64,000 nucleotides of DNA from contig CALWMN010000001.1 of assembly GCA_944381935.1 (NCBI GenBank), positions 124,001 through 188,000 of the forward strand. Direction: 5' to 3'. The position numbers were made by a program, and so were the translations under genes. Position 1 is the stretch's first letter, and each line of letters starts with the position of its first letter. The notes beneath the pieces were generated by a model. That model saw only the letters and a list, made by a program, of their open reading frames with translations. It ran no database searches and had not been told where the DNA came from. The DNA comes from an uncultured Mediterraneibacter sp. GTDB taxonomy: Bacteria > Bacillota > Clostridia > Lachnospirales > Lachnospiraceae. Below, one piece after another: positions 41,968-61,207 of this stretch.

Positions 41968-42429
41968 TTATCCTTCTATTGCAATATGTTTCTTTGTATC
42001 AACTGCCTGTTTATCCTTCTTTGGAATACTCAGCCTCAGGATACCATCCTCAAATTTTGCTTTAATGTCTTCATGTGTAATATCATCACCTACATAGAAG
42101 CTTCTCTGCATCGCCCCTGCATAACGTTCTCTGCGGATATACTTGCCTTCCTTATCTTTCTTGTCTTTGTCAAGTCCCTTTGCAGCGGAAATCGTCAGAT
42201 AACCGTTCTCAAGTTCAACATTTATCTCATCTTTCTTAAATCCCGGAAGGTCGATATCAAGCTCATATCCCGCATCGTGCTCACGAATATCTGTCTTCAT
42301 CATGTTTTTTGCATTTTTTCCATACAACGGATTCTTCTTGCCCCAAAAATCACGGTCAAATCTGTCAAACGGGAAATCCATCCAGTCATCATCAAATAAA
42401 TTTTCTCCAAAAATACTAGGCATTAACAT
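41968..42429 (-). CDS. hsp20: Small heat-shock protein Hsp20 (alpha-crystallin), copy 1
   Basis: 153 residues with an alpha-crystallin domain (about 45-140): KTDIREHDAGYELDIDLPGF, VELENGYLTISAAK, FYVGDDITHEDIKAKF and the C-terminal GILRLSIPKK. It is an ATP-independent holdase chaperone. It is about 88% identical by eye to copy 2 at 60.5-61.0 kb. AAGGAG precedes the start. Its promoter at 42626-42655 overlaps a CIRCE element, so HrcA should repress it. The integrative element begins inside that operator. Confidence 0.95.
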   Translation of the reverse strand: MLMPSIFGENLFDDDWMDFPFDRFDRDFWGKKNPLYGKNAKNMMKTDIREHDAGYELDIDLPGFKKDEINVELENGYLTISAAKGLDKDKKDKEGKYIRRERYAGAMQRSFYVGDDITHEDIKAKFEDGILRLSIPKKDKQAVDTKKHIAIEG

Positions 42430-42625: not shown

Positions 42626-42669
42626 ACTATAGCACCCGATTATTAGCACTGTCAAGAGGTGAGTGCTAA
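42626..42669 (-). promoter_or_regulatory. CIRCE operator and sigma-A promoter of hsp20 copy 1
   Basis: TTAGCACTG (42643-42651), nine bases, then GAGTGCTAA (42661-42669): the CIRCE inverted repeat with one mismatch to TTAGCACTC-N9-GAGTGCTAA. On the minus strand TTGACA (42650-42655) and TATAGT (42626-42631) are 18 bases apart, so the HrcA site covers the -35 box. The right half of CIRCE belongs to the integration core repeat. Confidence 0.9.
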
Positions 42670-42676
42670 TTTTTTT
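42653..42676. repeat. Attachment-site core, left (attL)
   Basis: A 24-bp sequence (CAAGAGGTGAGTGCTAA followed by seven T) repeated exactly and in the same orientation at 53120-53143. Together the copies bracket the integrase element. The core contains the right arm of the hsp20 CIRCE operator. Confidence 0.8.
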
Positions 42677-42764
42677 AAGATTTTTTAGAAAGCCTGAAAA
42701 AAGCTTGATTTTACGGGCTTTCTGAGCATTTACAACTTTTTAATTTGCTTCAAAAATGACTTAC

Positions 42765-42785
42765 TACACCATTTTTACACCATTT
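42765..42785 (+). repeat. Arm-type repeats near attL
   Basis: TACACCATTT occurs twice in tandem (42765-42774 and 42776-42785), about 90-110 bp inside attL. The same pair occurs near attR in the same orientation. They are likely integrase arm-binding sites. Confidence 0.5.
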
Positions 42786-42814
42786 CCGCGAAAACTACGA
42801 GCCATGCAGGGACG

Positions 42815-42864
42815 AAATTGAGTTGATTTTCGGGAGCTTGCTCACGGAAAATCATGCTCAATTT
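42815..42864. other. Long hairpin downstream of the integrase gene
   Basis: AAATTGAGTTGATTTTC (42815-42831) pairs with GAAAATCATGCTCAATTT (42847-42864) apart from a small bulge. More inverted segments (GGACCT/AGGTCC, GCGAGC/GCTCGC) lie at 42866-42930. It may end integrase transcription or be part of attP architecture. Confidence 0.45.
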
Positions 42865-42925
42865 TGGACCTATACGGCGACAGCCATACTAAGCGAGCCT
42901 GCTCGCGAGGTCCATGGCGGGCTCT

Positions 42926-44137
42926 TTACATAACCTGAACCTCATCCAGTTTGGCAATCTCCTGGACTATCCTTTCCTGATCCGTAACATGATTGTAAAC
43001 ATCCATAGTCACACTGATATTGGCATGTCCCATCACATACTGGACCACCTTGATATCCAGATCTGTCTCTGCCATACGGGTACATGCGGTATGCCTCAAG
43101 ATGTGAGCAGAAATATGAGGCATCTCCTCCGGCTCCCGTCTTTCCCGCATCGCCCGCTCCCTTTCTTCCTCATTATAGGTCTTTACAATATCCCGCAGGA
43201 TAAAATTGACAGAGCTTGGCATCATGGGGCGTCCGCTTCTGCTCATAAAGATGAAATCCGAAAGGCCGTCAATCTCAACATCCCGGGGAATCCCAAGCTG
43301 GAAATTCAGCCGCCGCTGGGTCTCAAAGGCTTTCCCCACCATCTTGCTCATGGGGATTACCCGAACACCTGCTTGGGTCTTCGGCAAAGTCTTATGGAAA
43401 TTACAACCATCCCCGTAGTTTTTATAGGTCAGCTGGTGATCCACGGAAACGGTTCGTTTTTTCATGTCCACATCTTTCCATGTCAATCCGATCAGTCCCC
43501 TACATCGGAGCCCGGTGCCGATCATAATCTGCAGCATAGGCAGATAAACCGCAAAGTTCTCATGATCTCTGACAAAGGCAAGAAGCTTTCTCTGCTGATC
43601 CAGTGTCAGCGCCGTCCGTTTCTTCTTCGGTTCCCCATAATCTCCCAATGCCTTTTTCGCCGGATTCTTGCGGATAATGTCATCCTCCACGGCAATCTCA
43701 AAGCTGGGATGAATCATGTTGTGAATGTATTTGATTGTATTATGAGCATACTTCTGTTTACTCAGCTTGGAATAAAACAGGCGGACGTGGGATGGTCTCA
43801 TCTGAACCACTTTCATCTGTCCCAAATCGTTTTTCACCAGACTGTCCCACATCCGGCAGTAATTCTTCTTTGTACTCTCCGCCAGCTTAGTGGTATCCAG
43901 ATGGATCTGAAACAGATCATTGAGGGTCATACTCCTGAACTCAGTATCTGTCAGGAGCCCCTCGTCCATATCTTTGTTGATCTCCTTTTCCTTTCTCCGA
44001 AGCTCCGCCAGATCCGGGGAATAGACAGCCAGACGCCTTCCGGTCCGTTCATCCTTGTACCGGTACATATAGAGTCCGTCTTTCCGCTGGGACTCGCCGG
44101 TCCTCAGATTCCTTCCTCTATTATCTTTTCTAACCAC
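42926..44137 (-). CDS. Tyrosine integrase of the hsp20-targeting element
   Basis: 403 residues: an N-terminal AP2-like/arm-binding part (about 1-65), a SAM-like core-binding domain (about 70-165) and a catalytic domain. Catalytic residues visible are R211 (TGLRCRGL), H345 and R348 (HILRHT), H371 (GHANI) and the nucleophile Y381 (DVYNHV). All are present, so it should be active. It lies about 250 bp from attL and reads toward it, normal for a Tn916/lambda-type module. The excisionase gene is upstream on the same strand. Two dead relatives lie at 53.2 and 61.3 kb. Confidence 0.93.
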   Translation of the reverse strand: MVRKDNRGRNLRTGESQRKDGLYMYRYKDERTGRRLAVYSPDLAELRRKEKEINKDMDEGLLTDTEFRSMTLNDLFQIHLDTTKLAESTKKNYCRMWDSLVKNDLGQMKVVQMRPSHVRLFYSKLSKQKYAHNTIKYIHNMIHPSFEIAVEDDIIRKNPAKKALGDYGEPKKKRTALTLDQQRKLLAFVRDHENFAVYLPMLQIMIGTGLRCRGLIGLTWKDVDMKKRTVSVDHQLTYKNYGDGCNFHKTLPKTQAGVRVIPMSKMVGKAFETQRRLNFQLGIPRDVEIDGLSDFIFMSRSGRPMMPSSVNFILRDIVKTYNEEERERAMRERREPEEMPHISAHILRHTACTRMAETDLDIKVVQYVMGHANISVTMDVYNHVTDQERIVQEIAKLDEVQVM

Positions 44138-44274
44138 AAAACCATTCCTTTCCGGTAACAGTTCAGCGATCTGGTTTCAGGAGACGGATTTATGCCTGCT
44201 TAAAAATCCGGCGACCGATATCCAGATCTGCGGAGCGCCCGTAAATGAGCAAAACAATGGCGAAAGCCATAATT

Positions 44275-44308
44275 AGCACGCGGTGCGGTTTTGCGAATGG
44301 CGCGTGCT
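44275..44308. other. Inverted repeat between excisionase and integrase genes
   Basis: AGCACGCG (44275-44282) and CGCGTGCT (44301-44308) form a perfect 8-bp stem with an 18-base loop. It sits in the roughly 275-bp gap before the integrase. It could be a partial terminator or a protein site; there is no T tract. I see no gene in this gap. Confidence 0.35.
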
Positions 44309-44413
44309 GAACTGTTCCTTCTGTAATATTTCCACCTCCGTCTGTTCTGAGAATGGTCTTGTCCTGTCTACTCAAAGTATATCACAAAACCACTCTCACG
44401 CACACATTCCCGC

Positions 44414-44608
44414 TTATTCCGCAATGGCTTCCAGATACTTTTCCACCTTCTGTACCGAATACAGCACCCAGTGTCCGATGGTGATCCTGGCGCCCGCGTC
44501 CACGGCTATTTTCCTTGCTGTCGCCTGACCGCAGGACAGCAAGGCGGCCAGTCCATCGATATCCACCGCCAGCCGAAGATCACTCTCTCTTTCTTTTGTC
44601 TGCCTCAA
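44414..44608 (-). CDS. Excisionase-like small helix-turn-helix protein
   Basis: 64 residues with a winged-helix pattern of Tn916-type excisionases: LAALLSCGQATARKIAVDAG, ARITIGHWVLYSVQKVEKYL. The typical role is to direct the integrase to excise. It begins one base after the DnaC-like gene's stop codon and lies upstream of the integrase on the same strand, as expected. Confidence 0.75.
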   Translation of the reverse strand: MRQTKERESDLRLAVDIDGLAALLSCGQATARKIAVDAGARITIGHWVLYSVQKVEKYLEAIAE

Positions 44609-44609
44609 T

Positions 44610-45359
44610 TCACATCACCTCCCCTTTCATCTGTTCTCTCAGCCGGTCCAGTTTTTCCTGTGCAGTCACGCGCCGGCGGCTCTCCCCGGAAAATTTTACC
44701 GGGACACACAGTTCCTTCAGCCGGTCATAAATTCGCGCATGAGCCGTATCCTGAGGATTGTTCAGCTCGTTCAGTGTCAGATTGGTAGTCACGATCAGCG
44801 GTTTGCCGCTCCGATATCTTCCGTCGATCACTGCATAGATTTGTTCCGGTCTATATTCTGTGCCGCGTTCCATTCCGAAATCATTGAAAATCAGCAAGGG
44901 GAACCGGTACAGGGATTTTATGTATTCATTCTTTTCTGAAAAATTAGAGAACAGGTCATTTAAGACTTCCGCAAAATTCGTCATGCGGACTGGGATTTCC
45001 TGTTCCAGCAGCGCATTGGCAATGCATTCAGCCAGAAAGCTTTTCCCTGTCCCTACTGCTCCTCAGAAGAGGAGACCAATATTATCACGTTTCATTTCCT
45101 CCCAATGCTTTACATAGAACCGGGCAGTTTCCGTATTCTTTGATTCCACGCGATTCTTATTAAAATTCCACTCCCGCATGGCTTTCTCGGAAAAACATCG
45201 TTCTTTTAAGCTTCTTACAGCTTCTTCATGCCGTGACTGCTCCCAGAGCACTTCCGCCTGTTCCCGGGCTTTCCTCCTCACTGCATGTATAATCCGGAAT
45301 CCCTTCTGCAGGAGCGGAACGCTCCGCCCATCTTCGCAAGGTAGCGGCATGGTCGGCAT
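44610..45359 (-). pseudogene. DnaC/IstB-like helicase loader, nonsense mutation
   Basis: One frame of about 249 codons interrupted by a single TGA at 45063-45065. The expected sequence there is NIGLLF-W-GAVGTGKSFLAE, so a Trp codon (TGG) directly before the Walker A motif became TGA. Downstream parts are intact: MTNFAEVLNDLF, LLIFNDFGMERGTEY (Walker B), SGKPLIVTTNLTLNEL (sensor 1) and ARIYDRLKELC. It would load helicase at the element's origin. A restart at 44984 would lack the P-loop. Readthrough or a sequencing error could alter this verdict. Confidence 0.82.
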
Positions 45360-45558
45360 AGTATTTGCCCGTAGATTTCATATAGCCGGATAATTCCTTG
45401 ATCAGCCGATCCACTCCTGGAATCTCCTGCTGGAGCTCCCTGTATTCGGATTCCGATAAATATACGTTTTGATATTTTCCATAAGCAGAGCGGGATCCCC
45501 TCTCTCCACTTATTGGACTCTGTATCTTTTGACTATTATTCATTTGATTAGAGGACAC
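45226..45558 (-). CDS. Replication-initiation helper protein (C-terminal-domain type)
   Basis: 110 residues. The centre carries the pattern YGKYQNVYLSESEYRELQQE ... LIKELSGYMKSTGKYYADHAATLRRWA, typical of the C-terminal domain of phage/ICE replication proteins encoded just before DnaC-like loaders. The large N-terminal winged-helix domain of full-length versions is absent, so this may be a naturally short or truncated form. It overlaps the loader gene by about 134 bp in another frame, suggesting a changed 3' end. Confidence 0.6.
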   Translation of the reverse strand: MSSNQMNNSQKIQSPISGERGSRSAYGKYQNVYLSESEYRELQQEIPGVDRLIKELSGYMKSTGKYYADHAATLRRWAERSAPAEGIPDYTCSEEESPGTGGSALGAVTA

Positions 45559-45636
45559 ATTTCTTACCCTCTGACGGTCACTTTTGGTAGAAAGGCCGGA
45601 ATCCGGGTCTGATCCGTCATGTACTCTGTCATCGGC

Positions 45637-45846
45637 CTATTCATCTTGTTCATTCTTCTGCTGCTGTCTGATCTTCCGCCGATGGCTCCGCTTGGATTCA
45701 TAACATGGACAGCAGATGATAACTGTCCGGAAACTCTGCTTACAGTCCCCGATGCATTTCCGGCAGGTCTCATTGTGTGTGACCCTTCCTCTTTCATAGA
45801 GAAAAAAGACCAATTCCTGTTTTCTTTTCTTACTCATTCTCGGCAC
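45637..45846 (-). CDS. Small Cys-containing element protein
   Basis: About 69 residues with a Cys pattern (CRKCIGDCKQSF, then CCPCYESKR) that could bind zinc, and a basic Arg/Lys-rich C-terminus. The best start is GTG at 45846 with AAAGGAGG seven bases upstream; ATG codons nearby are too close or too far. Similar small proteins occur at this position in Clostridia elements, but I cannot name the family. An overlapping frame (45564-45797) has no such features and was not called. Confidence 0.5.
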   Translation of the reverse strand: MPRMSKKRKQELVFFLYERGRVTHNETCRKCIGDCKQSFRTVIICCPCYESKRSHRRKIRQQQKNEQDE

Positions 45847-45934
45847 AGACATTCCTCCTTTCTGCCGTCCCACCGGTGCCGGATGCAGGACAGCAAAATA
45901 TGGTCGCGTTTCGGTATCATTTTTCGCATTTTTT

Positions 45935-45956
45935 GCTCATCTAAATGAGCTTTTTT
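45935..45956 (+). terminator. Terminator-like hairpin on the plus strand
   Basis: GCTCAT, four bases, ATGAGC, then six T (45935-45956). It fits a plus-strand terminator although no plus-strand gene precedes it. It may belong to an unrecognised short RNA or act as leader structure for the minus-strand genes. Confidence 0.35.
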
Positions 45957-46254
45957 GACCTTAAATATTCTTGGACAGGGATTCTACTGCCTGTGGGCAA
46001 AAACACTGTTTGGTCTTGTTTTGGTGTCATTTTGAAACAATTTGTCTGGACTACTTCCCAAATCCGGCAGAATGAGAATCGTCCTGAGACCGTTCCAGTC
46101 TTTTCTTCTCATGAATCCTCCTTTCATTCTTCCTGTTACGCAGTAACATCACAAATGGGAGAGTCGGCAGTCCTGCCGGAATCTTCCTTTTATGCTGCGT
46201 CTCACTTTCCAGTGGACGCTAATATCTGCTAAAGAAGCAGATTATCGAGGGTAT

Positions 46255-46341
46255 GGGGAATCGAAATCCCAAGCAAGAGCCCTGCATAGGAATACACGAT
46301 TGTGTATTACGGGGTGGATCTTGCTCTTATGAGAATTCCCC
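46255..46341. other. Nested three-tier palindrome (origin or oriT candidate)
   Basis: Three concentric inverted repeats share one centre. The outer is GGGGAAT/ATTCCCC (46255-46261, 46335-46341), the middle GCAAGA/TCTTGC with further partial pairing (46273-46278, 46319-46324) and the inner AATACAC/GTGTATT (around 46291-46309). The 87-bp unit lies upstream of the replication genes in a stretch of about 700 bases without a supported gene. Such cruciforms are typical of plasmid origins, oriT sites or structured RNAs. Confidence 0.5.
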
Positions 46342-46582
46342 TCTAACTAACCAAATTGGAAAGAAGTATTTTACAGCTTTAAAAAAAAGAAAATAATAAT
46401 TTTTCAAAATTTCCCTCTGCTCTTCTTTTTCAGTTTTTTAATAAGTCCTCACACTAATAGAATCAAAAAGTAGGGAAAATACAGGATAAGAAAAGAAATA
46501 ACTGAAATGCGACATTAAAAAAGCACCCAGTTAAAAACTGAATGCATCTAGTAAATATTCCAAAATATATTTGGGAGTAGTG

Positions 46583-46864
46583 TTATTTATATTGCGTCTT
46601 TCCCATACTTCTCATGGATTCTACGACACAAATCTTCCCAGCCAATCGTAATTCTTCAGGGGATGATTCAGGAATGTCTATACCTCCAAATTTCCCCTTC
46701 ATTTCATCTTCTATCGTCTTTCCGTAAACTGACAAGTATTCAGGATATTCATCTAAAAGTCTATAAAACAAATCATCAGCTATCGATCCCAGTTCCATGC
46801 AGCGATCTAAAATCGAATTATATATCTCCTGTGTCATAGGAATCTGATAATCCAGTGCTTCCAA
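46583..46864 (-). CDS. Hypothetical protein, 5' end uncertain
   Basis: About 93 residues, acidic and helical (MTQEIYNSILDRCMELGSIADDLFYRLLDEYPEYLSVYG). It can start only at a TTG at 46864; upstream the frame continues (FEFTDEQ) to a stop without ATG. It may therefore be a gene with a lost start or a TTG-initiated one. No family recognised. The flanking sequence is AT-rich element DNA. Confidence 0.4.
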   Translation of the reverse strand: MEALDYQIPMTQEIYNSILDRCMELGSIADDLFYRLLDEYPEYLSVYGKTIEDEMKGKFGGIDIPESSPEELRLAGKICVVESMRSMGKTQYK

Positions 46865-47047
46865 CTGCTCATCTGTGAATTCAAATATTTAAACAAGGAA
46901 ATTGCAAAACGCTCTATTTATTCCTATTTGTTTATGCATAATAAGAGCCTTCCGCCCACATATCTATTCTACAGCATTGTGGGTATCTCCACAATATTGT
47001 TTTTCGACGGCAACTCCTATAATTAAGTTATCTTTTAACGGAAAGGG

Positions 47048-47254
47048 GTGTTCAATATTATAGATTTCAGTCCACTGTGGGAAACCATGGAGCAGAAAGG
47101 CATCTCTCAATACCAGCTTCTAAAGCGCGGCATTGATAATAAAACACTGGATTCCCTGAAAAAGAATAAGAACATCACATTGAACACCCTTGAAAAACTT
47201 TCAAAGATTCTGAAATGTGATGATTTAAATAAGATAGTAAGATTTCATGAGTAA
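47048..47254 (+). CDS. Cro/C1-type (XRE) regulator
   Basis: 68 residues: a short helix-turn-helix protein of the HTH_26 type (LLKRGIDNKTLDSLKKNKNITLNTLEKLSKILKC). The start is GTG at 47048; the upstream GGAAAGG site is close, so ATT at 47057 is conceivable. It is probably a repressor of the element's own genes. It lies about 590 bp before the R-M controller gene. Confidence 0.65.
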   Translation: MFNIIDFSPLWETMEQKGISQYQLLKRGIDNKTLDSLKKNKNITLNTLEKLSKILKCDDLNKIVRFHE

Positions 47255-47843
47255 GGCAACTGGGATAAACAAGAGGATCCAATAGCCTTTATTATTTTTA
47301 TAGAGACTATAACCATTATATTAAGCCATGCCATCCTAGAACCATCAAATTCCTTTCCTTATGAAATAGAGAGCAGCCTTTTATTTTTGATTTTATGTTT
47401 GCCCTATAAGCTTTTGCATGTTTATCGTCCATCAACCATCCATACTTTAACAAAAACTCTAGCTCTCTTTTATCTATGTCGTACTATTCTTTTGTACATT
47501 TATCAGGAATACGCTCTTTTCCTTTAGTATAAAAAACATAATGATTCACCTTTCCTATGCAATAGAGCTCACCGCTTTTTTGTATTTTTCGCACTATGCG
47601 TTCTTATATCCGTAATGCCCGATTCGTCAGCCTATAGGTTCCGCACTACCGAATCACATTCAGCCAATATTAAAATTTTACCTACTTACATTTGACGCTT
47701 ACACATCAATCTATTTGGAACTATTTTAGTTGCAATTAACATATGGCAACATAAAATTGACTCACAATCACTATTCTGTTACTTATAAACCGTTGTCTTA
47801 TACTCCTCTTAATTTTATTCTTTTATTTAAGGGAGGTAATTTT
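47255..47843. other. AT-rich intergenic region upstream of the R-M controller
   Basis: About 590 bases without a supported gene. It includes an inverted pair GTTGC (47729-47733) and GCAAC (47746-47750), 12 bases apart and about 95 bp before the controller start, a possible operator. No classical C-box was recognised. Confidence 0.4.
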
Positions 47844-48050
47844 ATGATTCAAGTAGAATTAGGTCAACGAATTCAAGAAATTAGAATTTCACAAGGAATT
47901 AGTCAAGAAAAATTTGCATTGTCCATAAATATGGATCGAACATATTATGCTTCTGTTGAAGCTGGTAAAAGAAATATTTCAATAATAAATATTAAAAAGA
48001 TTGCTGACGGTTTCGGTATTTCTCTATCAGATTTATTTAAAAATTTGTGA
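47844..48050 (+). CDS. XRE-family controller (C-protein-like) of the R-M system
   Basis: 68 residues: a compact Cro/C1 helix-turn-helix (GQRIQEIRISQGISQEKFAL, MDRTYYASVEAGKRNISIINIKKIADGF), the size and fold of restriction controller proteins. GGGAGG precedes the start at 47844. It ends 14 bases before the endonuclease start and is co-directional, as in C-R operons. It should delay and tune endonuclease production relative to methylation. Confidence 0.8.
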   Translation: MIQVELGQRIQEIRISQGISQEKFALSINMDRTYYASVEAGKRNISIINIKKIADGFGISLSDLFKNL

Positions 48051-48064
48051 AAGGGGAGGTAATT

Positions 48065-49342
48065 ATGTCAAATTTTACATTTATAAAACCTATTGATCAA
48101 CCTTCAGGATCATTTAGGTTATTAGACTGGTTAGACACAAACTTCAGAGATAAAAATTTTACAAATTTTCGATGTACAGTGGCTTTTGCCAAAATTAAAC
48201 CTTTCTACAAACTACATAATTCTATACAAGTATGGAATTCTAATGGTAATTACTCTGAAGCCATTATTGGTGTGGATCATAAAAGTACCAGCTTACAAGC
48301 TCTTCAATATGCTATGTCAAATTTTAATAGTGTTTATATTTTACATGTAAATTATTCTACATTTCACCCAAAACTCTATATATTCTATGGACCTAGAAAG
48401 GCTGTAGCTTACTATGGTTCTAGTAATCTCACTTCGGGTGGGCTTGAAACAAATTTTGAAGGTGGCGTTCTCTTTGATTTTGACCTTACTAAAGACAATA
48501 CAGAATTTAATAATCTATTATTAAATTACACAACGTTATTAAATCCTTCTGTTCCTTGTACAGTTTTATTGACACCAACTTTTTTATCACAACTGGAATC
48601 CGCTAATCTTTTGTTAGATGAATCTATAACTCCTACTAAGTCGCCTTTAATACCGTCAGCTACAAAGTTCTCAACTACAACTAAACCTTTATTTGGCTCT
48701 TATTCTGTTAAGCCAGCTAAATCTATACCTAAATCCGTTATTACTGCTGCCTCTAGCTCAGGTATTATACCTTCATCTGCTCCAAAAGCTAAAGGGAGAT
48801 CAACTTCCCCTAGTACTAAAGCTTTGCCATCTGCTCCTATAATTATCCCGTTATTGGTTGATGGATTTATTTCCCAAATTGCTCCTCACAATAACGGAGA
48901 AATTTTACTGAGTAAATTAGCAGTCAATCAAAATCCCGCTTTTTTTGGTTTCCCTTTTACCGGGTCTACTATTCCAAAAAAGGCTACAAATGTTGCATAT
49001 CCGCAAAGAACACCTGATCCTACCATAAACATTGAAGTATACGATTCGAGGGGAGCACTTGTTAACTTTGTTCCAAATTATAAGTTAAATATGGTATATT
49101 ACACTAGGAAATCTGAGATAAGAATAACGATTACTCCTTCCATTTTAGCAGGTCTAGGCTGGACACTCGGTAATCCAAACTATCCAATTATGGTGATGGA
49201 ATTATCTAAGGCTACAGGAATTGATTATGAATTGAAATTTTACGCTCTCGGAAGTATAGATTATACAAATTATTTAACAATATGTAATCAAACACTACCA
49301 TCAGGAGGGAATTCCGTTCCTCGCAAAATGGGGTGGTATTAA
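48065..49342 (+). CDS. Phospholipase-D-type restriction endonuclease (BfiI/BmrI-like)
   Basis: 425 residues. The N-terminal nuclease domain (about 1-170) carries one HKD-type motif: FHPKLYIF, then AYYGSSNLTSGGLETNFEGG, as in BfiI-type enzymes that need no metal ion. A long Ser/Thr/Pro/Lys linker (about 190-265) leads to a C-terminal B3-like DNA-binding domain (about 270-425; FFGFPFTGSTIPKKA, YPQRTPD, NYPIMVMELS). GGGGAGG precedes the start at 48065; an ATG at 48047 is upstream of that site. It is convergent with the double methyltransferase. Recognition site unknown; the BfiI kinship is from motifs only. Confidence 0.75.
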   Translation: MSNFTFIKPIDQPSGSFRLLDWLDTNFRDKNFTNFRCTVAFAKIKPFYKLHNSIQVWNSNGNYSEAIIGVDHKSTSLQALQYAMSNFNSVYILHVNYSTFHPKLYIFYGPRKAVAYYGSSNLTSGGLETNFEGGVLFDFDLTKDNTEFNNLLLNYTTLLNPSVPCTVLLTPTFLSQLESANLLLDESITPTKSPLIPSATKFSTTTKPLFGSYSVKPAKSIPKSVITAASSSGIIPSSAPKAKGRSTSPSTKALPSAPIIIPLLVDGFISQIAPHNNGEILLSKLAVNQNPAFFGFPFTGSTIPKKATNVAYPQRTPDPTINIEVYDSRGALVNFVPNYKLNMVYYTRKSEIRITITPSILAGLGWTLGNPNYPIMVMELSKATGIDYELKFYALGSIDYTNYLTICNQTLPSGGNSVPRKMGWY

Positions 49343-49365
49343 AATAGAACATTAGCCCTTTTATA

Positions 49366-49516
49366 AGTATACGGTAAACCGCTAGTACTGTGTTAGTTTT
49401 TCAATCCATGAGATAATAACTTCAAAAAGCTACCGCTTTTTAAGGTAGTCGCTATTACAATCACACATCAATTGCGTTCAAAGCCCTAGGGCAGTACATA
49501 CGGTTTACCGTATACT
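49366..49516. repeat. MITE-like element or cruciform between R and M genes
   Basis: A 16-bp perfect inverted repeat, AGTATACGGTAAACCG (49366-49381) and its complement (49501-49516), extends to 25 bp with three mismatches (49366-49390, 49492-49516). It encloses about 100 bases with no gene. The whole 151-bp unit sits exactly between the convergent R and M genes. Confidence 0.55.
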
Positions 49517-49539
49517 ATTATTGAATCACAGCTCTTTCT

Positions 49540-52347
49540 TTATTTTTTAAAAACAAGAATATTGTTCTCAGTAATTGAATTTTTCATATGTTTATACTTT
49601 TCAATTGTGACACTAATTGGTATATCATATTCAAGTGTCCATCCCATATTACGTCCAGTTTCTCTTAACATCTCTGTTGTTTTTATCACAACCTTTTCTT
49701 CTCCTGTCGTCGTTTTAGTATCTCCAATCACAATACAAATATAACCATTTTCTTTTATAATCTCGTCAATTGTATTCATCACTTTAGTCATATCATGAAA
49801 ATACATATAAACCAATGCTGACATATTTTTTCGTCGGAACCCAACATCTGCATTTTTGTTTTGTGTATATATCTTATAAATTATTTCTTTTGCACAGTTT
49901 GATGTTATTTCTCCATAATTTCCTTCTTCAATTTTTCTTTCATATATACTTCTTATTCCTTTCTTTATTTCTCTTGTTCCAGTCATTTCCGCTTCTATGG
50001 GTACTCGTTTTGTTGCATTGATTCCATCCAGAACAAGCATATTCAATCGATTTGTATCAATATATGGCAAAGCAGTGGCATATGGTGGGCTTGTTATAAC
50101 TATATCAATTTCCCGATTTCCAATATTTTGCTTTACTAATTGAGTATCTGTCGAATTTCCTCTCCAAACTTTTGCACTTTCCAACTTCGTTGGTGCATTT
50201 TGACATACAGAGAAATAGACCATGATATTATTGTATTGCTTATCCAAGTTACTCATATAAATTCCTAAAACATCTGCATCATCAATTTGCTCTTTTCTAC
50301 GCCTAATTCTTAAATCTGAAGGATCTTGTTGGGAAATTTCTCTTATAATTGAGCTTAAAATAATTCGTAAAAAATCTTGAATTTGTTTATTAGGAACTGT
50401 TTCTATCTTTTTTAAAATAAAGGCCATTTTATTGATAACCTTTATTGGAAACCAACTTTCTATTTCTCCGATAGATTCCTTATCAAAAACTTCATGGTAA
50501 TCAAAATTAGCATAATTTGCTAATTCTTGTTTAAACAGATTAATATGCTTTTCAAAATCATATGGGGATACTCTAAATATATTATTTTTTACTTTTGCTA
50601 TTTCCACTGCAGTAGGATTAATATCACATCCATATCCCTTATATCCGTTTAAAGTAGCCTCTAACAAAACTGTTCCACTACCACAGAAAGGATCAAATAC
50701 TCTTGCCCCTTTTTCTATATGTAATATATTCAACAAAGGGCGTACTAATTGCGGATAAAATTTCCCCTTATATGGATGAACTCCATGTGTTAAATACTTT
50801 GATTCTTTCCTATCACTTTCATTATCCTGACTGTGTTCTAAAATTCGTTGCCAAGTGTCAGCATATGTTCCATTAATAGAATAGCCTTTATAAAATGTTA
50901 ATTTTTTTAAATTTTTTAACACATCAATATCTAATGTATTAAACATATCCCTTTTTTCCCCAAGTAACGCCTCTTTTTCAAGATCACTGATTGTTTTTTC
51001 ATAAGGCTGTAATTTGTATTCTACTTTGTGTAATTGTATAGCAGATAAACTAACTGGTTTCCTCAGTATCAAAATTTGCTCTGTTGTTGCTCTTCTCGCC
51101 CAACTTTTTACAGTTCTTTTGTTTTCAGGCAAGTTTCTATCCACAATCCCAATAAGATTAAAACCAATTTTTTCTGCTACTTCACCTATCTCTTTAGCTG
51201 TTTTATATTCTTTTCCGTCAAAAACGGCATCCCCCAAAATAAAAACAGCATACCTTCCTGATTTTAAAGCCTTAAAACAATTTCTTAATACTGGTGCCAT
51301 TTCTATCTTATATTGTTCAAAATTAAACTTTCTTTTTTGATATTTTAGATGCGAACCTATTTCTTCCTGTCCCATTTTTCTAGGATCACCATTAAGCCAA
51401 AATATTCTAAATCTATGATATAAGTGATAATCAAATGCATTGGGGTACGGCGGCGAAGTTATTATTAAATCAACTGAATCATTTTTTATTTTATTTTTTT
51501 CACCAACTATCTCCTCCATAACATTCGTTGTTATAAATTCACAAGATCTATATCCAATCACAGAGCTTAAGTCTTTTATCTTCAGATAATTAATCTTTAA
51601 ATCTTTTAGGAAGATAGCAACTGTTTCACCTACATAAGTTTCTCTTTTCTTTGCTCTGTACGTTGTTTCGCTTTCCTGGTTTGATACTTTTGTTACTATT
51701 TTCGATAAAGATGCTTTTGCAATATTTTTATTTGTTTCAGACATTAATTCACTTTTTATTAGAACTTTTAAAAATGCTAACTCACAAATAACAGGTTCCT
51801 CAAACCATTTTTCTATATTAGGTATATTTGGAATTTCACAATTAATATCATCCAAATGCCTTTTTATATAAACTCCAAGTTCATCTTTATTTAGATCATA
51901 GTATTCAAGTCTAGTTATAAAACGATCTAGTTCCATTTCGTCCTCTGATGTTAAACCTGTTGTCTTTGCTTTACCTATAATTTCTCCAATCGGATTTAAA
52001 TCTGTACTTACACATGTTCTATTTCTCAATATTGCCTCTAAAACAGTTGTTCCACTTCCTCCAAAAGGATCCCATACCCGCTCTCCCAAATCACTTAAAA
52101 TACTTATTACCTGAGCTGGTATTTGTGGTGGAAATTTTGCTGGATACGGATGTATATCATGAGAAAAATATGCTGTGTCTTCTGCTGTAAACGACCAATC
52201 TATCGCTTGAAATATTCTTAAAACCTGTTGTTCATCATTTAAATTGATTTTTATATCATTAGTATCTATGCAATCTAAATCCAAATCTTGAATTCTAGTA
52301 AAATAGGTTAAATATCTTTCTATTATTTTCTCATTTTGATTATTCAT
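49540..52347 (-). CDS. Fused double N4-cytosine-type DNA methyltransferase
   Basis: 935 residues made of two methyltransferase halves. Half 1 has HDIHPYPAKFPPQ, SAM motif VWDPFGGSGTT (about 93-100) and catalytic DLIITSPPYPNAFDY (about 299). Half 2 has HGVHPYKGKFYPQ, VFDPFCGSGTV (about 550) and DIVITSPPYATALPY (about 750). SPPY favours N4-cytosine modification. Enzymes with an asymmetric site need one activity per strand; in BfiI/BmrI systems these are separate proteins, here they are one chain. It partners with the convergent PLD-type endonuclease. A purine-rich site precedes the start. Confidence 0.85.
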   Translation of the reverse strand: MNNQNEKIIERYLTYFTRIQDLDLDCIDTNDIKINLNDEQQVLRIFQAIDWSFTAEDTAYFSHDIHPYPAKFPPQIPAQVISILSDLGERVWDPFGGSGTTVLEAILRNRTCVSTDLNPIGEIIGKAKTTGLTSEDEMELDRFITRLEYYDLNKDELGVYIKRHLDDINCEIPNIPNIEKWFEEPVICELAFLKVLIKSELMSETNKNIAKASLSKIVTKVSNQESETTYRAKKRETYVGETVAIFLKDLKINYLKIKDLSSVIGYRSCEFITTNVMEEIVGEKNKIKNDSVDLIITSPPYPNAFDYHLYHRFRIFWLNGDPRKMGQEEIGSHLKYQKRKFNFEQYKIEMAPVLRNCFKALKSGRYAVFILGDAVFDGKEYKTAKEIGEVAEKIGFNLIGIVDRNLPENKRTVKSWARRATTEQILILRKPVSLSAIQLHKVEYKLQPYEKTISDLEKEALLGEKRDMFNTLDIDVLKNLKKLTFYKGYSINGTYADTWQRILEHSQDNESDRKESKYLTHGVHPYKGKFYPQLVRPLLNILHIEKGARVFDPFCGSGTVLLEATLNGYKGYGCDINPTAVEIAKVKNNIFRVSPYDFEKHINLFKQELANYANFDYHEVFDKESIGEIESWFPIKVINKMAFILKKIETVPNKQIQDFLRIILSSIIREISQQDPSDLRIRRRKEQIDDADVLGIYMSNLDKQYNNIMVYFSVCQNAPTKLESAKVWRGNSTDTQLVKQNIGNREIDIVITSPPYATALPYIDTNRLNMLVLDGINATKRVPIEAEMTGTREIKKGIRSIYERKIEEGNYGEITSNCAKEIIYKIYTQNKNADVGFRRKNMSALVYMYFHDMTKVMNTIDEIIKENGYICIVIGDTKTTTGEEKVVIKTTEMLRETGRNMGWTLEYDIPISVTIEKYKHMKNSITENNILVFKK

Positions 52348-52535
52348 TTTTTCACTCCCTTCTGGGTAATTGTATCATTTCCCAGATTTATTTACAATAA
52401 AAAAATACATTTTTATATCTAAGCCTCAAATGAAATTTTACATTCCACTCCTTTAATGAAGTGTAGAGACTCTTTCATATATCCATGGTATGGTTATCTC
52501 TCCTTCTGACAGCAGTAGAAGGAGGAATAACACAA

Positions 52536-52667
52536 ATGAGTAAATTTATTCCAGGTAATCAGAAACATCTTACCCTTGAAGACCGTATTTACATCGAAAA
52601 TGAATGGAATAAGGGAACATCCTTTAAGGACATTTCCAGATCCCAACTACCATCCCAAAAGAGGTAA
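52536..52667 (+). pseudogene. IS30-family transposase N-terminal fragment
   Basis: About 33 residues (MSKFIPGNQKHLTLEDRIYI, NEWNKGTSFKDISR) match the helix-turn-helix start of IS30-type transposases. A small deletion then shifts the frame: PTTIPKEVR, the expected next block, follows in another frame. No DDE domain is nearby. The surrounding 52,350-53,035 stretch holds no other gene I can support. Confidence 0.7.
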
Positions 52668-53039
52668 GACCAATTGGCGAAACAGTGTTTATCCAATTCA
52701 AGAATCTTACTGCATCGAGCAACAAACACAAGTTTTTTTGAGTTGATCACATTTAAAACTTATGCATATCACCAATGTAGATAAACGACATTTTTACAAG
52801 ATGGGACCGATCAAAAATGATTGGATCCACATTGAACATAGATTCCTCTATGAATCATTGTTTATCTTATCTTTTTGCCTTCTTATAATTTACATCTGTA
52901 TGTTGGAAATTAAAAATGTGGAATATTGATTGCAATTAAATGCAACTATATTGCAACTTAGTTGCAATTTATTCTATTCAGCAAACCTTCTTGCACCTGC
53001 TCTTTTTCCCTCTATGATAAATTTTATCTTGTATTTTAC

Positions 53040-53061
53040 TACACCATTTACTACACCATTT
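53040..53061 (+). repeat. Arm-type repeats near attR
   Basis: TACACCATTT at 53040-53049 and 53052-53061, matching the pair near attL in sequence and orientation, about 60-80 bp inside attR. Confidence 0.5.
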
Positions 53062-53119
53062 TCTTTCAAAATGATGATTTTTGACACTTCCAGACAAAAA
53101 GACAGAGCCCGCCACACGG

Positions 53120-53143
53120 CAAGAGGTGAGTGCTAATTTTTTT
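53120..53143. repeat. Attachment-site core, right (attR)
   Basis: An exact second copy of the 24-bp core at 42653-42676. It carries only the right arm of CIRCE (GAGTGCTAA, 53128-53136). The sequence left of it is element DNA and lacks the TTAGCACT arm. Confidence 0.8.
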
Positions 53144-53154
53144 CTTTTCTGTTG

Positions 53155-53515
53155 TCAGAAGTTTACTTCCATATTATCCAGCTTTGCTATCCCATTTTCA
53201 ATCCTTGCCCTATCGCCCAAGTAGTTATATACTTCCATAATTACATCAAAATGAGCGTGTCCCATGATGTACTGTAATACCTTAATATCCATATGGCACT
53301 CTGCCATTCTGGTGCAGGCCGTAAGATTCATAACATGGGCAGAAATCTTTGGAAGCAGTTCTGCTTTCCTCTATTCTTTGTTTACCTTTCTTTCCCTTTG
53401 GGACTTCCTGTGTCATGGGGATCACATGAATACCAGAATCCGGCTTTAGAGTAGAAATATGAAAGCGACAGACATCCCTATAGTTCTTGTAAATGAGCCG
53501 GCAGTCTACATTCAA
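53155..53515 (-). pseudogene. Second tyrosine integrase, dead C-terminal remnant
   Basis: The last 60 or so codons read ISAHVMNLTACTRMAE, DIKVLQYIMGHAHFDVIMEV, YNYLGDRARIENGIAKLD and stop at 53155-53157. They align with the intact integrase's C-terminus. Upstream, CRLIYKNYRDVCRFH aligns with its QLTYKNYGDGCNFH after an internal deletion and frame change. The conserved LRHT is MNLT, so the second catalytic Arg is gone. It starts 12 bases after attR, as expected for an older element in the same site. Confidence 0.82.
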
Positions 53516-53761
53516 GCATCTGTCCTTATATATGACAGCATAGTTAAAACAACATGTGGCTTGGCAACAAGTTCTATTTTCTTATTTTCACATAAGTAAA
53601 TGTGATACAGATAACCTGAATGAACGCCATATGTATCGACCTGCATCTGTAGTGTAAGCGAATAGTGCTTAGCATCAACAAAAAGAGTGTTTTCCCGCTG
53701 CTGATACTAATTTATATAGACTATGCACACAGGATAAGCATAACTAAAATATCTATAATTG

Positions 53762-54733
53762 TTACAAATTATTTTGCATATACTCTTCACGTAAACTCAT
53801 CAAAGTTTTTCCTGTCTTTTGATCTACACAAAAAGCATACGTCTGGACAGATGACCACCCAAAAACTGCTTTCAGCCATTGTTGGATAGACATTAGACTT
53901 CCATCCGTAGTTTTCACCTGTCCATTTTTCTGTAAAATTGCTTCCTCTGTTGTTCCCTTTGCCACCAAAACATCTCCTGGATTTACAATTTCCCACTCCA
54001 GCAATGCATCAATTTTAGGAAGAGATCGTCTTGTAATATCTTTACCACGTTCTTTTGTTAAGTTACCTGTTTTTGAGACGTTTACATAGAAATCTTCATA
54101 TTCTACCACCGGTAATATCTTTTTCATGTCAATCAGTATATTATCTTTAAATTTATGAGGTAAAATTTGATAACAGCTTATATCAACATTATTACTATTT
54201 AACCATGCCACTGCTGATAATGTTTGTTCGTCAAATTCTGATGCCACAAGAATAATTCGCTGATGTTTATTAAATGTAGTAATATCATTTTTCTCAACAA
54301 AATCCGAGAGTTGTCTTTGTGCAATTTCCGCAGAGGTCAGTTCTAAATACCCTATAAATTCCTTCTTATGTTTTTCCACGTATGGTGCAAATACGTTTTG
54401 AATCAGCATATCTGTTGACTTTATGGTAGCACAACTTGCCGCATATCGAATTGCCTGGAATTCAAATGCTTCTTTTCTGTTTTCAATATCTTTTTTATCC
54501 CTTTTAATTTCAATAAGTACTAAATCACCGTTATTGTCGATGGCAGTTAAATCACTTCTTCCGTTCATCTCATTTTTCACCTGCTGTCCAACAATAATCA
54601 TAGATTCTTCATCACCACATAACATATCAATATTGGTTCTAAGAATCTCTTCTATATCACTTTCTCGCATTCCAAGTTCAGAAAAGGTTGTTTCTTCTAA
54701 TTTTGAAGGCTGATTATGATCTAGAAAATACAT
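53762..54733 (-). CDS. NucS/DUF91-like nuclease with RAMA domain
   Basis: 323 residues. The N-terminal PD-(D/E)xK nuclease core is visible as D61 (GRSDLTAID) and E75-x-K77 (LVLIEIKRDK), like EndoNucS/DUF91. A middle domain of about 150 residues follows. The C-terminus (about 245-315; GDVLVAKGTTEEAILQKNG, GSLMSIQQWLKAVFG) resembles RAMA, a domain predicted to bind modified DNA and often found in restriction proteins. The start at 54733 has AAGGAGG six bases upstream. It is likely a modification-related defence nuclease, but no partner is fixed. Confidence 0.7.
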   Translation of the reverse strand: MYFLDHNQPSKLEETTFSELGMRESDIEEILRTNIDMLCGDEESMIIVGQQVKNEMNGRSDLTAIDNNGDLVLIEIKRDKKDIENRKEAFEFQAIRYAASCATIKSTDMLIQNVFAPYVEKHKKEFIGYLELTSAEIAQRQLSDFVEKNDITTFNKHQRIILVASEFDEQTLSAVAWLNSNNVDISCYQILPHKFKDNILIDMKKILPVVEYEDFYVNVSKTGNLTKERGKDITRRSLPKIDALLEWEIVNPGDVLVAKGTTEEAILQKNGQVKTTDGSLMSIQQWLKAVFGWSSVQTYAFCVDQKTGKTLMSLREEYMQNNL

Positions 54734-54779
54734 ATATTTCCTCCTTTGCATCTATCAATTATATCATCAGCTATATCAC

Positions 54780-55656
54780 ATGAGCTGCACTATATCCAAT
54801 CCACAGGTATCCGCCATTAATATACAGTAATTCAATACATCCAATTGCCAGATCCTTTGGATTATGAAACTGTCTCCAATTCCGTCCATCTCTGAATTTT
54901 AATACTTTATCTAAAATAGCCTGTTTGATAATTTCCGCCTCTTTCCCTTACTCAACATCATAGCCGATTTCCTCGCCCATAATTATAAATCCATAATTCA
55001 AATCATATCCCTGCAGCCATTCGTACCAACTGAACTTCTCTTTCTTTCTGATACATTAGCTCATTAAATTTTTTAAAATCTGTAACTCTCTTCAAACCCT
55101 AATTTTGAAAGCTCTTTTTTCTTTCACGATCCCATATGTTTGACTGCTCTGTATGCATTTTCTGCGAAATCTTCTCACACCAATCCCTGACGGACTTACC
55201 ACCTGAATTTCATCATAAAATAATATCGGACATTTACACTGGTGCAGAATCCGGTCCAATTCATCACTATCTGTAGTTAAAACCTATACGTTCACAGGAA
55301 GCCTTAAACGAACCCCCCTATATGAAATATCCTTATATTGATGAATCCTGTGTGCTCCATCCACAAGCAGAATATCATAATTTTGTTTTGCCACATCTGA
55401 CGGAGATAAAATATCTGATGCCTTAATGCCATAAACACTTTTAGAAATACCTTATCCATAGTACCGGGAATTTTTTATCATATTCTTTTTTTCCATAATA
55501 TTCTCCATCAGCCATACCCGCATTTTTGTTACGAACCTCATATAACTCATCTGCCGCAATATACTGAATAAGTTTCGATTCGTAATCAAAAGTAACTGAC
55601 TGATTAAATTTTGAAGAATATATAAAGCATTGGTCAATTTGACAGATAACTTTCAT
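54780..55656 (-). pseudogene. Decayed MazG-like and DUF2075-like genes
   Basis: Short minus-strand stretches in changing frames. FRDGRNWRQFHNPKDLAI (about 54845-54935) resembles the start of MazG-type pyrophosphohydrolases. IKASDILSPSDVAKQNYDILLVDGAHRIHQYK and LDRILHQCKCPILFYDE (split here for reading; about 55190-55440) resemble DUF2075 helicase-like proteins. An open stretch at 55441-55656 leads into the latter and is not itself recognised. Several stops and shifts separate the pieces, so none should be functional. The pair is common in defence islands. Confidence 0.5.
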
Positions 55657-55718
55657 TCCCCCGGCATATTAAGTCCTTTTTGATTATTATTCTATCTCAA
55701 TCCCGCGACCGGCAAATT

Positions 55719-57734
55719 TCAATCCCACTTACATTCCATATGAATCACTGCCCCAGGCATACCGATAAACTGCACATCAAATTTAAGGCTTGGTTCTACT
55801 TTGCCGCTCGCATTATGAATCCTAAAACTCAGCCGCCATCCGTTATCAAGCTCCATTTCAACGGTATTGCTGCTCTTGGGTTTAAATTTTAAGGCGATAA
55901 TCCTGGTTGGCATCTCTACGTCGGGCACCGGAATATCAGGCGCCTTTTTCTTACCAGGTTTATTCAATGTTCCGTTCATATTAAACGCAGAAACCATTGT
56001 GAGACGTCTGTTATCCCTGCTCACAATTTTATAATAATCCTTGATTCCGATTAAGTATCTCATCATCTTCTTCAGGATCTGAGGATTCTCTTGGTAACTC
56101 CTTTGGACCTCATCTATAAATGCCTGTAATAAAGGAATATATATCTGTTGGTCTTTATCCCCAATATTCGACCATCTGGTCCCGTTTTCTTTTTCTTTCT
56201 TTAATCTTTCAAAAACGGGGGTCACAGCATTCCAGTACTTACTGCTGCAGGAAATGTCATACCACTCTTCTCCAAAATCCAATTTATGGCTCAGCCTGCT
56301 GTGTTTTACAGCATCATGATTATGTTTTATGCTCAATCCGATTTCCCAGTTAATACTGTCTCTTTTAAGCACAATATCCCTGACATCCCCTTTTTTCCCC
56401 TGGGCGTCATTCTGAAACCCCAGAACCAGTTCGTCATCCCCTTCAGACAAGTTCGGTTCCAGCTCAAGAATGGTACTGACCGCAGCATTGGCGGACGCCA
56501 TAAAGGTTTCTTTCATGTCATCCTGAATCGACAGCCATGCTTTTTTATTAGCCTCAAGGCTTGTATTCTCTGTCACTTTTATTTTTCTGATTTTATGTAA
56601 TTCTTCAGTCAAACTGCACATCCATGCGTACTCATAAGCCCGCCCCTGTGTATTACTGTTTTTCCTCACTTTTCTTCTATTGTCTTCTTTCGCATCTATT
56701 ACTTCTGTATCAACAATTACATCCAAAGCATTGCCTTCAAGATATTGTTTAATTGCCACTGCTATTTCATATGCGAGATTAACCGGAACTGCATTCCCAA
56801 TCATCTTATACGCAGTATTTGTATCATTATAAATGAACCGGAAACTGTCGGGAAATCCTTGTATCCTTGCCACCTCTCTGATAGTCATCCTTCTATACAG
56901 ATTTTCTTTGCCTTCTACAAATCTGCAGTCATTTTTTCCAGCCTTTACCATTTTAGGCGCCTGCGGGTGCAGCTGGCACTGCCTTCCGGATGCCTGTACC
57001 GTAAACGCCTGCTCATCCCAGGATTTCACCCTGTTTCTGCTCATGAAAATAGGGGAAAATGCTCCCGTATAATATTCGTTATTATTAACCGCTTTTGGAT
57101 TATGATGGTTTTTCGGTCCGGCAGGTACCGCAGTTTCCTGTAAATCCCAAATAACATCTCTAAGCGTTAATTTTTTTTCATCCTCTTTTGTAGAGCCTTT
57201 CGGAAAACCAAAATCGATATTCAGGTCTTTTCTAAACCCAATATAAAATACTCTTTTTCTTTCTTCCGCAACCCCATAATCTTTTGCATTAACCATAGAA
57301 AACGAGACGTCATATCCAGCCTCATCAAACATTTCCAAAATATTTTTAACCGCTTCTGAATGCCGGTTTGCCAACATTCCGCTCACATTTTCCGCCAGGA
57401 AAAACTTTGGCTTAAATTCTTTTAACAGCCTGATATAATCAAAAAACAGTTGTCCTCTTTCGTCTTTAATCCCTTTTAATGCTCCTGCCTCTGACCATGA
57501 TTGGCACGGCGGTCCCCCGATAATGCCATCAACATCTCCATCTATATATTTCAATATATCTTCTTTCGCTATCTTTCTGATGTCCTCTTCAATCAAATGG
57601 GTTTTAGGGTGATTCACTTTAAATGTTTCCCAAATAGATTTATCAAACTCATTTGCAACCGGGATATCAAATCCCGCCTGTTCAAATCCCAAATCTAATC
57701 CTCCACAGCCGCTGAAAAGACTGATTACATTCAT
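55719..57734 (-). CDS. Fused C5-cytosine methyltransferase and HaeIII-type restriction endonuclease
   Basis: 671 residues. Residues 1 to about 345 form a complete C5-methyltransferase: motif [14 protein letters not shown], catalytic C77 in [47 protein letters not shown] and [12 protein letters not shown]. The target-recognition stretch [15 protein letters not shown] and HPQAPKM resembles M.HaeIII. Residues about 375-671 resemble the HaeIII endonuclease family ([46 protein letters not shown]), with a PD-ExK-like D...E-x9-K pattern around 460-490. Normally these are two genes. The start at 57734 has AAGGAGG eight bases upstream. Divergent from vsr. Confidence 0.85.
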
Positions 57735-57837
57735 TAGATTTTCCTCCTTTTTTATCAGCTCTGCCTCCTGCTGAAAATGATTATAATCAGATTTGTATTG
57801 CATCGTCAATACTTCGGCGCGCAAACACATGTTCTCT

Positions 57838-57870
57838 TTTGAATATACCAACGTTTATGGTATACTGTTC
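57838..57870. promoter_or_regulatory. Divergent promoter with palindromic operator between MR fusion and vsr
   Basis: TATACC (57844-57849), nine bases, GGTATA (57859-57864) is a perfect inverted repeat. On the plus strand it overlaps a likely -10 TATACT, about 16 bases after TTGAAT, upstream of vsr. A regulator, possibly the methyltransferase itself, could bind here and control both genes. Confidence 0.5.
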
Positions 57871-57896
57871 ACAACAGTCCAAAGGAGATGATTTCT

Positions 57897-58349
57897 TTGC
57901 CGCGCGATCCCAAAATAATCTCAAAAAACATGAGTAAAATACGCAGTCAAAATACTTCCATAGAATTAATTTTAAGAAAAGCATTATGGAAAAAAGGTTA
58001 TAGATATCGAAAAAATTATAAGGCGCTTCCCGGTTCGCCGGATATTGTTCTCACAAAATATAAAATTGCTGTTTTTTGTGACAGTGAATTTTTTCACGGA
58101 AAAGATTGGGAAATATTAAAATTACGTCTTGAAAAAGGTAAAAATCCTGATTATTGGATCAAAAAAATTGCGAGAAACCGTTTGCGCGACTGGGAGAACG
58201 ACAAGCGTCTGCTGTTTCTGGGATATACGGTCCTTCATTTCTGGGGACAGGATATCATAAAGCATACGGACGAATGCCTCCAGGCAATAGAAGAATCTAT
58301 ATGGGCCAACAAAATCGCTGATGCTGCCGATGATGAAGAATACTTTTGA
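57897..58349 (+). CDS. vsr: Very short patch repair (Vsr-type) endonuclease
   Basis: 150 residues. Vsr signatures are NMSKIRSQNTSIE, LWKKGYRYRKNYKALPGSPDIVL, IAVFCDSEFFHGKDW and ARNRLRDWENDKRLLFLGYTVLHFW. It nicks at T:G mismatches formed when 5-methylcytosine deaminates, protecting the sites modified by the adjacent C5-methyltransferase. The likely start is TTG at 57897, nine bases after AAAGGAG; ATG at 57888 abuts that site. It is divergent from the MR fusion. The usual D-G-C-F-W-H-G block reads CDSEFFHG, so Cys and Gly positions vary. Confidence 0.88.
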   Translation: MPRDPKIISKNMSKIRSQNTSIELILRKALWKKGYRYRKNYKALPGSPDIVLTKYKIAVFCDSEFFHGKDWEILKLRLEKGKNPDYWIKKIARNRLRDWENDKRLLFLGYTVLHFWGQDIIKHTDECLQAIEESIWANKIADAADDEEYF

Positions 58350-59728: not shown

Positions 59729-59729
59729 T

Positions 59730-61156: not shown

Positions 61157-61207
61157 ACTATAGCACCTATTTATCAGCACTGTCAAGCCTCGAGTGCCAA
61201 TTCTTTT
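61157..61207 (-). promoter_or_regulatory. Degenerate CIRCE/promoter of hsp20 copy 2 and att-like sequence
   Basis: TCAGCACTG (61174-61182), nine bases, GAGTGCCAA (61192-61200) is a CIRCE with three mismatches in total. The 24 bases at 61184-61207 match the attachment core at 18 positions. Promoter boxes are 18 bases apart, as in copy 1. Confidence 0.75.

Follow-up and report, generated by a model that had tools for sequence, protein, structure and literature searches.

A family of mobile-element integrases in gut bacteria appears to insert in the heat-shock operator CIRCE and to rebuild its sequence

What makes the operator of a heat-shock gene a place where mobile elements end? The question is raised by a 64,000-nucleotide stretch of contig CALWMN010000001.1 (assembly GCA_944381935.1, an uncultured Mediterraneibacter sp.), which we call the window and in which a 10.5-kb segment carrying an integrase gene, here element 1, stops beside an hsp20 gene within a controlling inverted repeat of chaperone expression (CIRCE). 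CIRCE, consensus TTAGCACTC-N9-GAGTGCTAA, is the operator on which the heat-shock repressor HrcA acts. Our comparisons support the view that a mobile-element family in gut bacteria inserts in CIRCE, carries a replacement half-operator and, as read from the sequences, rebuilds the operator sequence. The integrase of element 1 is very probably specific for CIRCE, chiefly for the form whose right arm shares bases with a -35 box TTGACA, with the operator rebuilt on insertion and a tandem formed by re-insertion. An earlier note, made from the letters of the window, had claimed a 24-bp direct repeat around the segment, and this was borne out: CAAGAGGTGAGTGCTAATTTTTTT is present as an exact match at 42653-42676 and 53120-53143, these are the only two window matches at ≤3 mismatches, and none was found in 100 shuffles. 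Its description of the core as half a CIRCE plus a T-run also held, with most of the spacer to be added, as on the minus strand the repeat reads AAAAAAATTAGCACTC-ACCTCTTG, comprising an A-run, a single CIRCE arm and all but one of the nine spacer bases. Past the left copy this strand continues with ACAGTGCTAA and then the hsp20 promoter; past the right copy it continues with CCGTGTGGCGGG and runs into the element. The left copy overlaps a CIRCE-like 27-mer (42643-42669) with one mismatch to the consensus, one of two window CIRCE sites at ≤3 mismatches (shuffle mean 0.01). The putative hsp20 promoter has its -35 TTGACA at 42650-42655, within CIRCE, and a -10-like TATAGT at 42626-42631 (spacing 18); since this -35 box spans spacer and right arm, the repeat stops at its TTG. 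There are seven CIRCE sites in the window genome, the six others including ones before groES-groEL and htpG-like genes, and the TTGACA form is confined to the two hsp20 sites, which may be why the other sites are unoccupied.

The strongest evidence came from relatives of the integrase, which were sought in named species genomes and in 58 genomes of the genus, 397 of the family and 391 of the class. Named species genomes gave 28 loci, 20 of them with CIRCE within 1500 nt, and 27 of the 397 family genomes had a match at least 44% identical. Among 26 loci from the class-wide search (E up to 1e-100), two had CIRCE, both already known, and the 24 without it shared no more than 41% identity with the 11 members used (four of these 24 had short flanks, 137-405 nt). 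The search of viral contigs confirmed no relative, and the best matches in phage and plasmid records, outside the tree described here, were 41% identical, under the 44% of the group it defines. For this tree 113 tblastn records longer than 300 residues were reduced to 69 distinct rows and then to 64 integrases by excluding truncated copies already counted (L103, L123, L083, L100) and an interrupted gene (L065); shorter partial integrases, L030-L036 among them, stayed outside. Rows were scored for CIRCE at ≤4 mismatches in the 600 nt that follow the integrase stop codon. A branch with support 99/96 sets apart a group of 44 rows, whose identity to the window protein is 44% or more, and 35 of these have CIRCE; all 35 CIRCE rows fall in this group, and none was found among the 19 rows with a readable flank outside it (20 rows; the flank of L063 is unreadable). 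The chance rate is ~0.0014 per integrase, from seven sites in 3.04 Mb. Fisher's test gave p = 5e-10 with all 20 outside rows counted; as related rows are not independent, the tree is the more telling. Members adjoin CIRCE at several genes across many genera, mostly Lachnospiraceae, with two of the 44 rows labelled Oscillospiraceae and Clostridiaceae, so that a search for the family beside other CIRCE sites, which the earlier note had proposed, turned out positive. We have little doubt that this integrase group targets CIRCE; its specificity is strong, not absolute. With CIRCE as attB, an element has a choice of several equivalent sites in one genome.

Of the alternatives the best to survive is that the integrase responds not to CIRCE itself but to A/T-rich DNA lying immediately upstream of a strong promoter, which heat-shock promoters would merely chance to provide: an A-run precedes CIRCE at occupied sites and most empty ones, three group members have their half site in non-CIRCE DNA, and, in the available portions of PMC4701971, Tn916 favours A/T-rich DNA and the insertions of TnGBS elements lie 15-16 bp upstream of the -35 box. 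However, such a preference accounts poorly for 35 of 44 members at CIRCE, with seven sites in the window genome, against 0 of the 19 Tn916-type integrases outside the group whose flank could be read, or for the use of the htpG CIRCE although a TTGACT-like box exists further downstream, and we consider it unlikely.

The genes behind the 35 CIRCE sites were read from their protein starts (with Pfam for ten of the 35, plus L016 and the window) and named accordingly: hsp20 in 16, clpB in 12, htpG in three, groES in one and a thioesterase in one, with two unread (L135, L164). Near members adjoin CIRCE with TTGACAGTGCTAA, three more distant members adjoin it at htpG, and wherever the target gene was read it was oriented as the integrase. 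That many matches come from one genus and lie at hsp20 genes might point to a single old insertion inherited with the hsp20 locus, i.e., to shared descent and not targeting. Against this, two identical integrases (L018 and L016) lie at hsp20 in one species and at clpB in another, cargo differs between elements, and at each of the two hsp20 sites the window and genome G008 differ in state, one being empty where the other is occupied, all of which makes inheritance of one insertion highly improbable.

These states were read at the window MATE gene, which matched 39 of the 58 genus genomes (30 loci read, window included). Four of the 29 relatives (G015, G008, G021 and G001) have an empty site, with ≤50 nt between the point where the MATE match stops and CIRCE, and hsp20 after it; in three further relatives CIRCE lies 800 to 1390 nt from MATE, and in the window there is no CIRCE within 1500 nt after MATE, the elements being there instead. 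In G008 the MATE site is empty and the other hsp20 site bears a family integrase end (the contig ends inside the integrase gene), the reverse of the window in occupancy of the two hsp20 sites. The empty site foreseen by the earlier note thus exists, but its junction joins MATE to the hsp20 promoter and not to the sequence right of 53143; together with the family at CIRCE sites, the empty sites support its claim of an integrative element inserted in the hsp20 CIRCE. In loci L174-L203, 17 of 27 hsp20 CIRCE sites with 60 nt upstream have an upstream sequence that matches a known integrase end at 70% identity or more (several of the 17 are the same places as the reference ends), and CIRCE targeting would explain such frequent element ends at the hsp20 promoters of the genus. 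At six loci (L176, L180, L181, L182, L184 and L202) integrase-end-like sequence stands at the hsp20 CIRCE, and the upstream DNA read there (0.7 to 1.5 kb) yielded no integrase; these are probably scars of lost or decayed elements. With the left flank of the Claveliimonas bilis element, and likewise with that of the An118 element, 11 genomes were searched and none showed an empty site, and the G046 dehydrogenase-hsp20 site gave no clean occupied/empty pair. A zinc-ribbon gene lies next to the core in G063 and, in G062, next to an empty CIRCE (L085, L099); this candidate pair was rejected, as local BLAST similarity stops before the junction.

The sequence right of 53143, which the earlier note had taken as the host side, instead contains a decayed integrase of the same family and orientation as that of element 1, and the right junction is therefore one of element to element. 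By this reading of the sequence, element 1 and an older related element 2 form a tandem; a search of the window for the far (right) end of element 2 did not find it. The T-run common to both copies of the 24-bp repeat probably reflects an A/T run at the integrase end of both elements. A second insertion at a rebuilt CIRCE would give the tandem seen here, and a similar arrangement is present in G036/G066, where a 57-58% identical integrase and the core are followed by a 97% identical element. Tandem accretion is familiar from streptococcal integrative and conjugative elements (ICEs).

How would an operator be left whole by insertion? The integrase end bears the A-run and TTAGCACTC, and the gene side retains the right arm. 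The left arm was TTAGCACTC in 34 of 35 integrase ends, with spacer ACCTCTTG in 19 and another spacer, e.g., GCCCCTTG or AAGGCTTG, taken as the host's, in 16; right ends have ACCTCTTG in 13 of 14 distinct cases (the search string favours ACCTCTTG) and may have a variant left arm, TTAGTACTT or ATAGCACTT, before it. The variant left arms at right ends and the differing spacers at integrase ends fit exchange at or in the spacer. We propose that the two inverted arms of CIRCE serve as core sites for a pair of integrase subunits and that the 9-bp spacer contains the strand-exchange overlap, in the manner of the coupling sequence of Tn916; we lean towards this assignment of arms and spacer. The element-borne arm would restore operator and promoter after insertion, which may make insertion cheap for the host. 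The rebuilt operator is a matter of sequence and kept regulation one of function; taken together we regard them as probable. A more speculative and rather doubtful extension is that integrase and HrcA compete for the one operator, HrcA hiding attB/attL at normal temperature until heat or protein stress frees CIRCE and so permits integration and excision; if so, the element would sense host stress via its own attachment site, and its operator arm would keep the host gene regulated. An operator used as attB links mobile-element movement to the heat-shock circuit. That the repeat is instead a host duplication of hsp20 and CIRCE with the integrase incidental, as the two window hsp20 copies, each with CIRCE, might suggest, is scarcely credible given that at the right repeat (53120) there is no hsp20 and just one half of a CIRCE, and that the same half-site core occurs at both element ends in six other genomes (core copies spaced 18.6, 10.2, 23.6, 20.3, 28.1 and 23.2 kb).

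Several observations weigh against CIRCE-specific insertion with exchange in the spacer. Nine of the 44 group members have no adjoining CIRCE: in five (L013, L017, L020, L023, L087) the half site faces the apparent right end of another element, in three (L015, L022, L163) it adjoins unrelated DNA, that of L163 preceding a frame that we take to resemble a metal-transporting ATPase, and L153 has not even a half site, nor has L030/L052, a partial integrase (82%) outside the tree. Two of the CIRCE rows are broken integrases (L159, L167), and the CIRCE survey covered DNA downstream of the integrase only. At the MATE gene, 25 of the 29 relatives have no CIRCE-hsp20 directly after it, and in 22 no CIRCE was found in the DNA read (195 nt only for L270). 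Finally, the clpB element of C. bilis has a repeat of 37 bp, which exceeds the core by 20 bp (L119 616, 19170), the extra bases being the end of a host gene present on both sides, and G467, with a flank near-identical to that of C. bilis, has a similar extended match that is at least as long (L208); simple exchange in the spacer fails to explain this repeat. As separate observations, G061 (L131 3189, L132 5953) has a family element at a non-CIRCE site with left arm TTAGTACTT and right side TATGTATCTG, both ends seen, and L188 and L208 share a sequence ending ACTTTTTCAWTTAA, insertion-sequence-end-like, tens of bases upstream of CIRCE, of which L153 may be the other side.

Tn916 and Tn1549 are the nearest known systems. 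The integrase has a Tn916-type N-terminal DNA-binding domain (Integrase_DNA, 63.5 bits; Phage_integrase, 107.6 bits; cut-offs 27 and 27.1), and its closest solved chain is 6emy 'Int protein' (E 7e-42), presumably Tn1549 Int. Residues R210, K252, H344, R347, H370 and Y380, which we take to be the catalytic R, K, H-x-x-R, H and Y, are invariant in an alignment of 11 members (A1). Element 1 also resembles these transposons in having short repeats near both ends; those at 42761-42784 are, on the pattern of Tn916, candidate sites for the N-terminal domain, and the signal is weak (four window matches at ≤2 mismatches vs 1.09 expected; 1 of 100 shuffles reaches four). In contrast, the low specificity of Tn916 for A/T-rich DNA, as given in the accessible text of PMC4701971, is not matched by the CIRCE group, which mostly uses one operator (35 of 44). 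The same text has TnGBS1 and TnGBS2 inserting just upstream of -35 boxes, as here, but by a DDE transposase, without a common target sequence and at various sigma-A promoters, whereas the present elements have a tyrosine integrase and one operator. Streptococcal tyrosine-integrase ICEs likewise have direct repeats that preserve the target sequence; their targets in that text are gene ends (rplL, guaA, rbgA, ftsK, ebfC, tRNA genes), unlike the non-coding repressor site of several genes seen here, and a repressor operator as attB thus differs from the gene ends or A/T-rich DNA described there for related integrases (PMC4701971). No report of integration into CIRCE was found in the full-text literature searched, most subscription journals being outside its reach. 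PMC10602874, in its available part, deals with HrcA and CIRCE in pneumococcus and names islands near dnaN and uvrA; PMC13346255 was rejected as a CIRCE report, its matches in the text retrieved being to an author name.

The remaining features of the window are given in Table 1. The earlier note had claimed integrase and excisionase genes for element 1; the first is intact, and the second, a DUF6462-like protein, is a probable excisionase despite its weak Pfam match because a homolog adjoins the integrase in every compared locus holding a whole integrase. The broken genes beside it match residues 6-45 and 154-269 of the C. bilis rep protein and 62-283 of its IstB-like protein. Most relatives compared have rep, istB, xis, int and attL in that order; where the integrase is 57-58% identical (L067, L135, L137), xis and int alone are seen, and TWA4 (L120) has a weak rep match. 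The cargo of element 1 is a restriction system (control-protein-like helix-turn-helix (HTH) protein, PLD-like nuclease and double methyltransferase), and cargo varies, with restriction/nuclease-type genes in the C. bilis element and esterases in that of TWA4. No relaxase or conjugation gene was found in the subset of open reading frames scanned (10 in the window, 10 in the C. bilis element and eight in the TWA4 element).

Table 1. Positions and strands of the features of the window, with the basis of each assignment.
Feature	Position	Strand	Basis or remark
hsp20 copy 1, gene behind the target operator	41968..42429	-	Pfam HSP20, 79.8 bits
Putative hsp20 promoter	42626..42655	-	read from sequence against the promoter consensus
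attL, CIRCE TTAGCACTC-ACCTCTTGA-CAGTGCTAA	42643..42669	-	1 mismatch; left arm element side, right arm gene side
24-bp direct repeat, left copy	42653..42676		sequence match
Two direct repeats TTACTACACCATT / TTTTTACACCATT, candidate arm-type sites	42761..42784	+	
Tyrosine integrase, Tn916/Tn1549 type, 403 aa, intact	42926..44137	-	Phage_integrase + Integrase_DNA
DUF6462-like small protein, 64 aa, probable excisionase	44414..44608	-	24.8 bits, Pfam cut-off 27.1
Broken IstB/DnaC-like and RepA_N-type genes	44616..45704	-	match to C. bilis proteins
HTH protein resembling restriction-system control proteins	47730..48050	+	
PLD-like nuclease, NgoFVII-like	48047..49342	+	28.1 bits, cut-off 23.8
Double N6/N4 DNA methyltransferase, cargo	49540..52347	-	
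Two further TTACTACACCATT repeats close to right end	53036..53060	+	
24-bp repeat, right copy; attR of element 1, at integrase end of element 2	53120..53143		
Decayed integrase of element 2, two pieces	53164..53527	-	56% and 42% identical to C. bilis integrase
Probable element 2 cargo: RAMA-like (below cut-off), HaeIII-type methylase-nuclease fusion, Vsr	53762..58349		
MATE gene, host side of empty site	58397..59785	-	similarity to relatives stops near 58425
hsp20 copy 2	60544..60996	-	
CIRCE of hsp20 copy 2	61174..61200	-	3 mismatches; without visible element end alongside

At 52485-52667 the window has an HTH-bearing fragment, with Pfam HTH_38 just under the cut-off, which presumably resembles the start of an IS30-type transposase. 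Two CIRCE-like sites, L143 and L144 (G000:C1:288362 and C21:34818), lie outside the classic regulon, one before a gene with a lon-like start and the other before a small membrane-protein-like gene.

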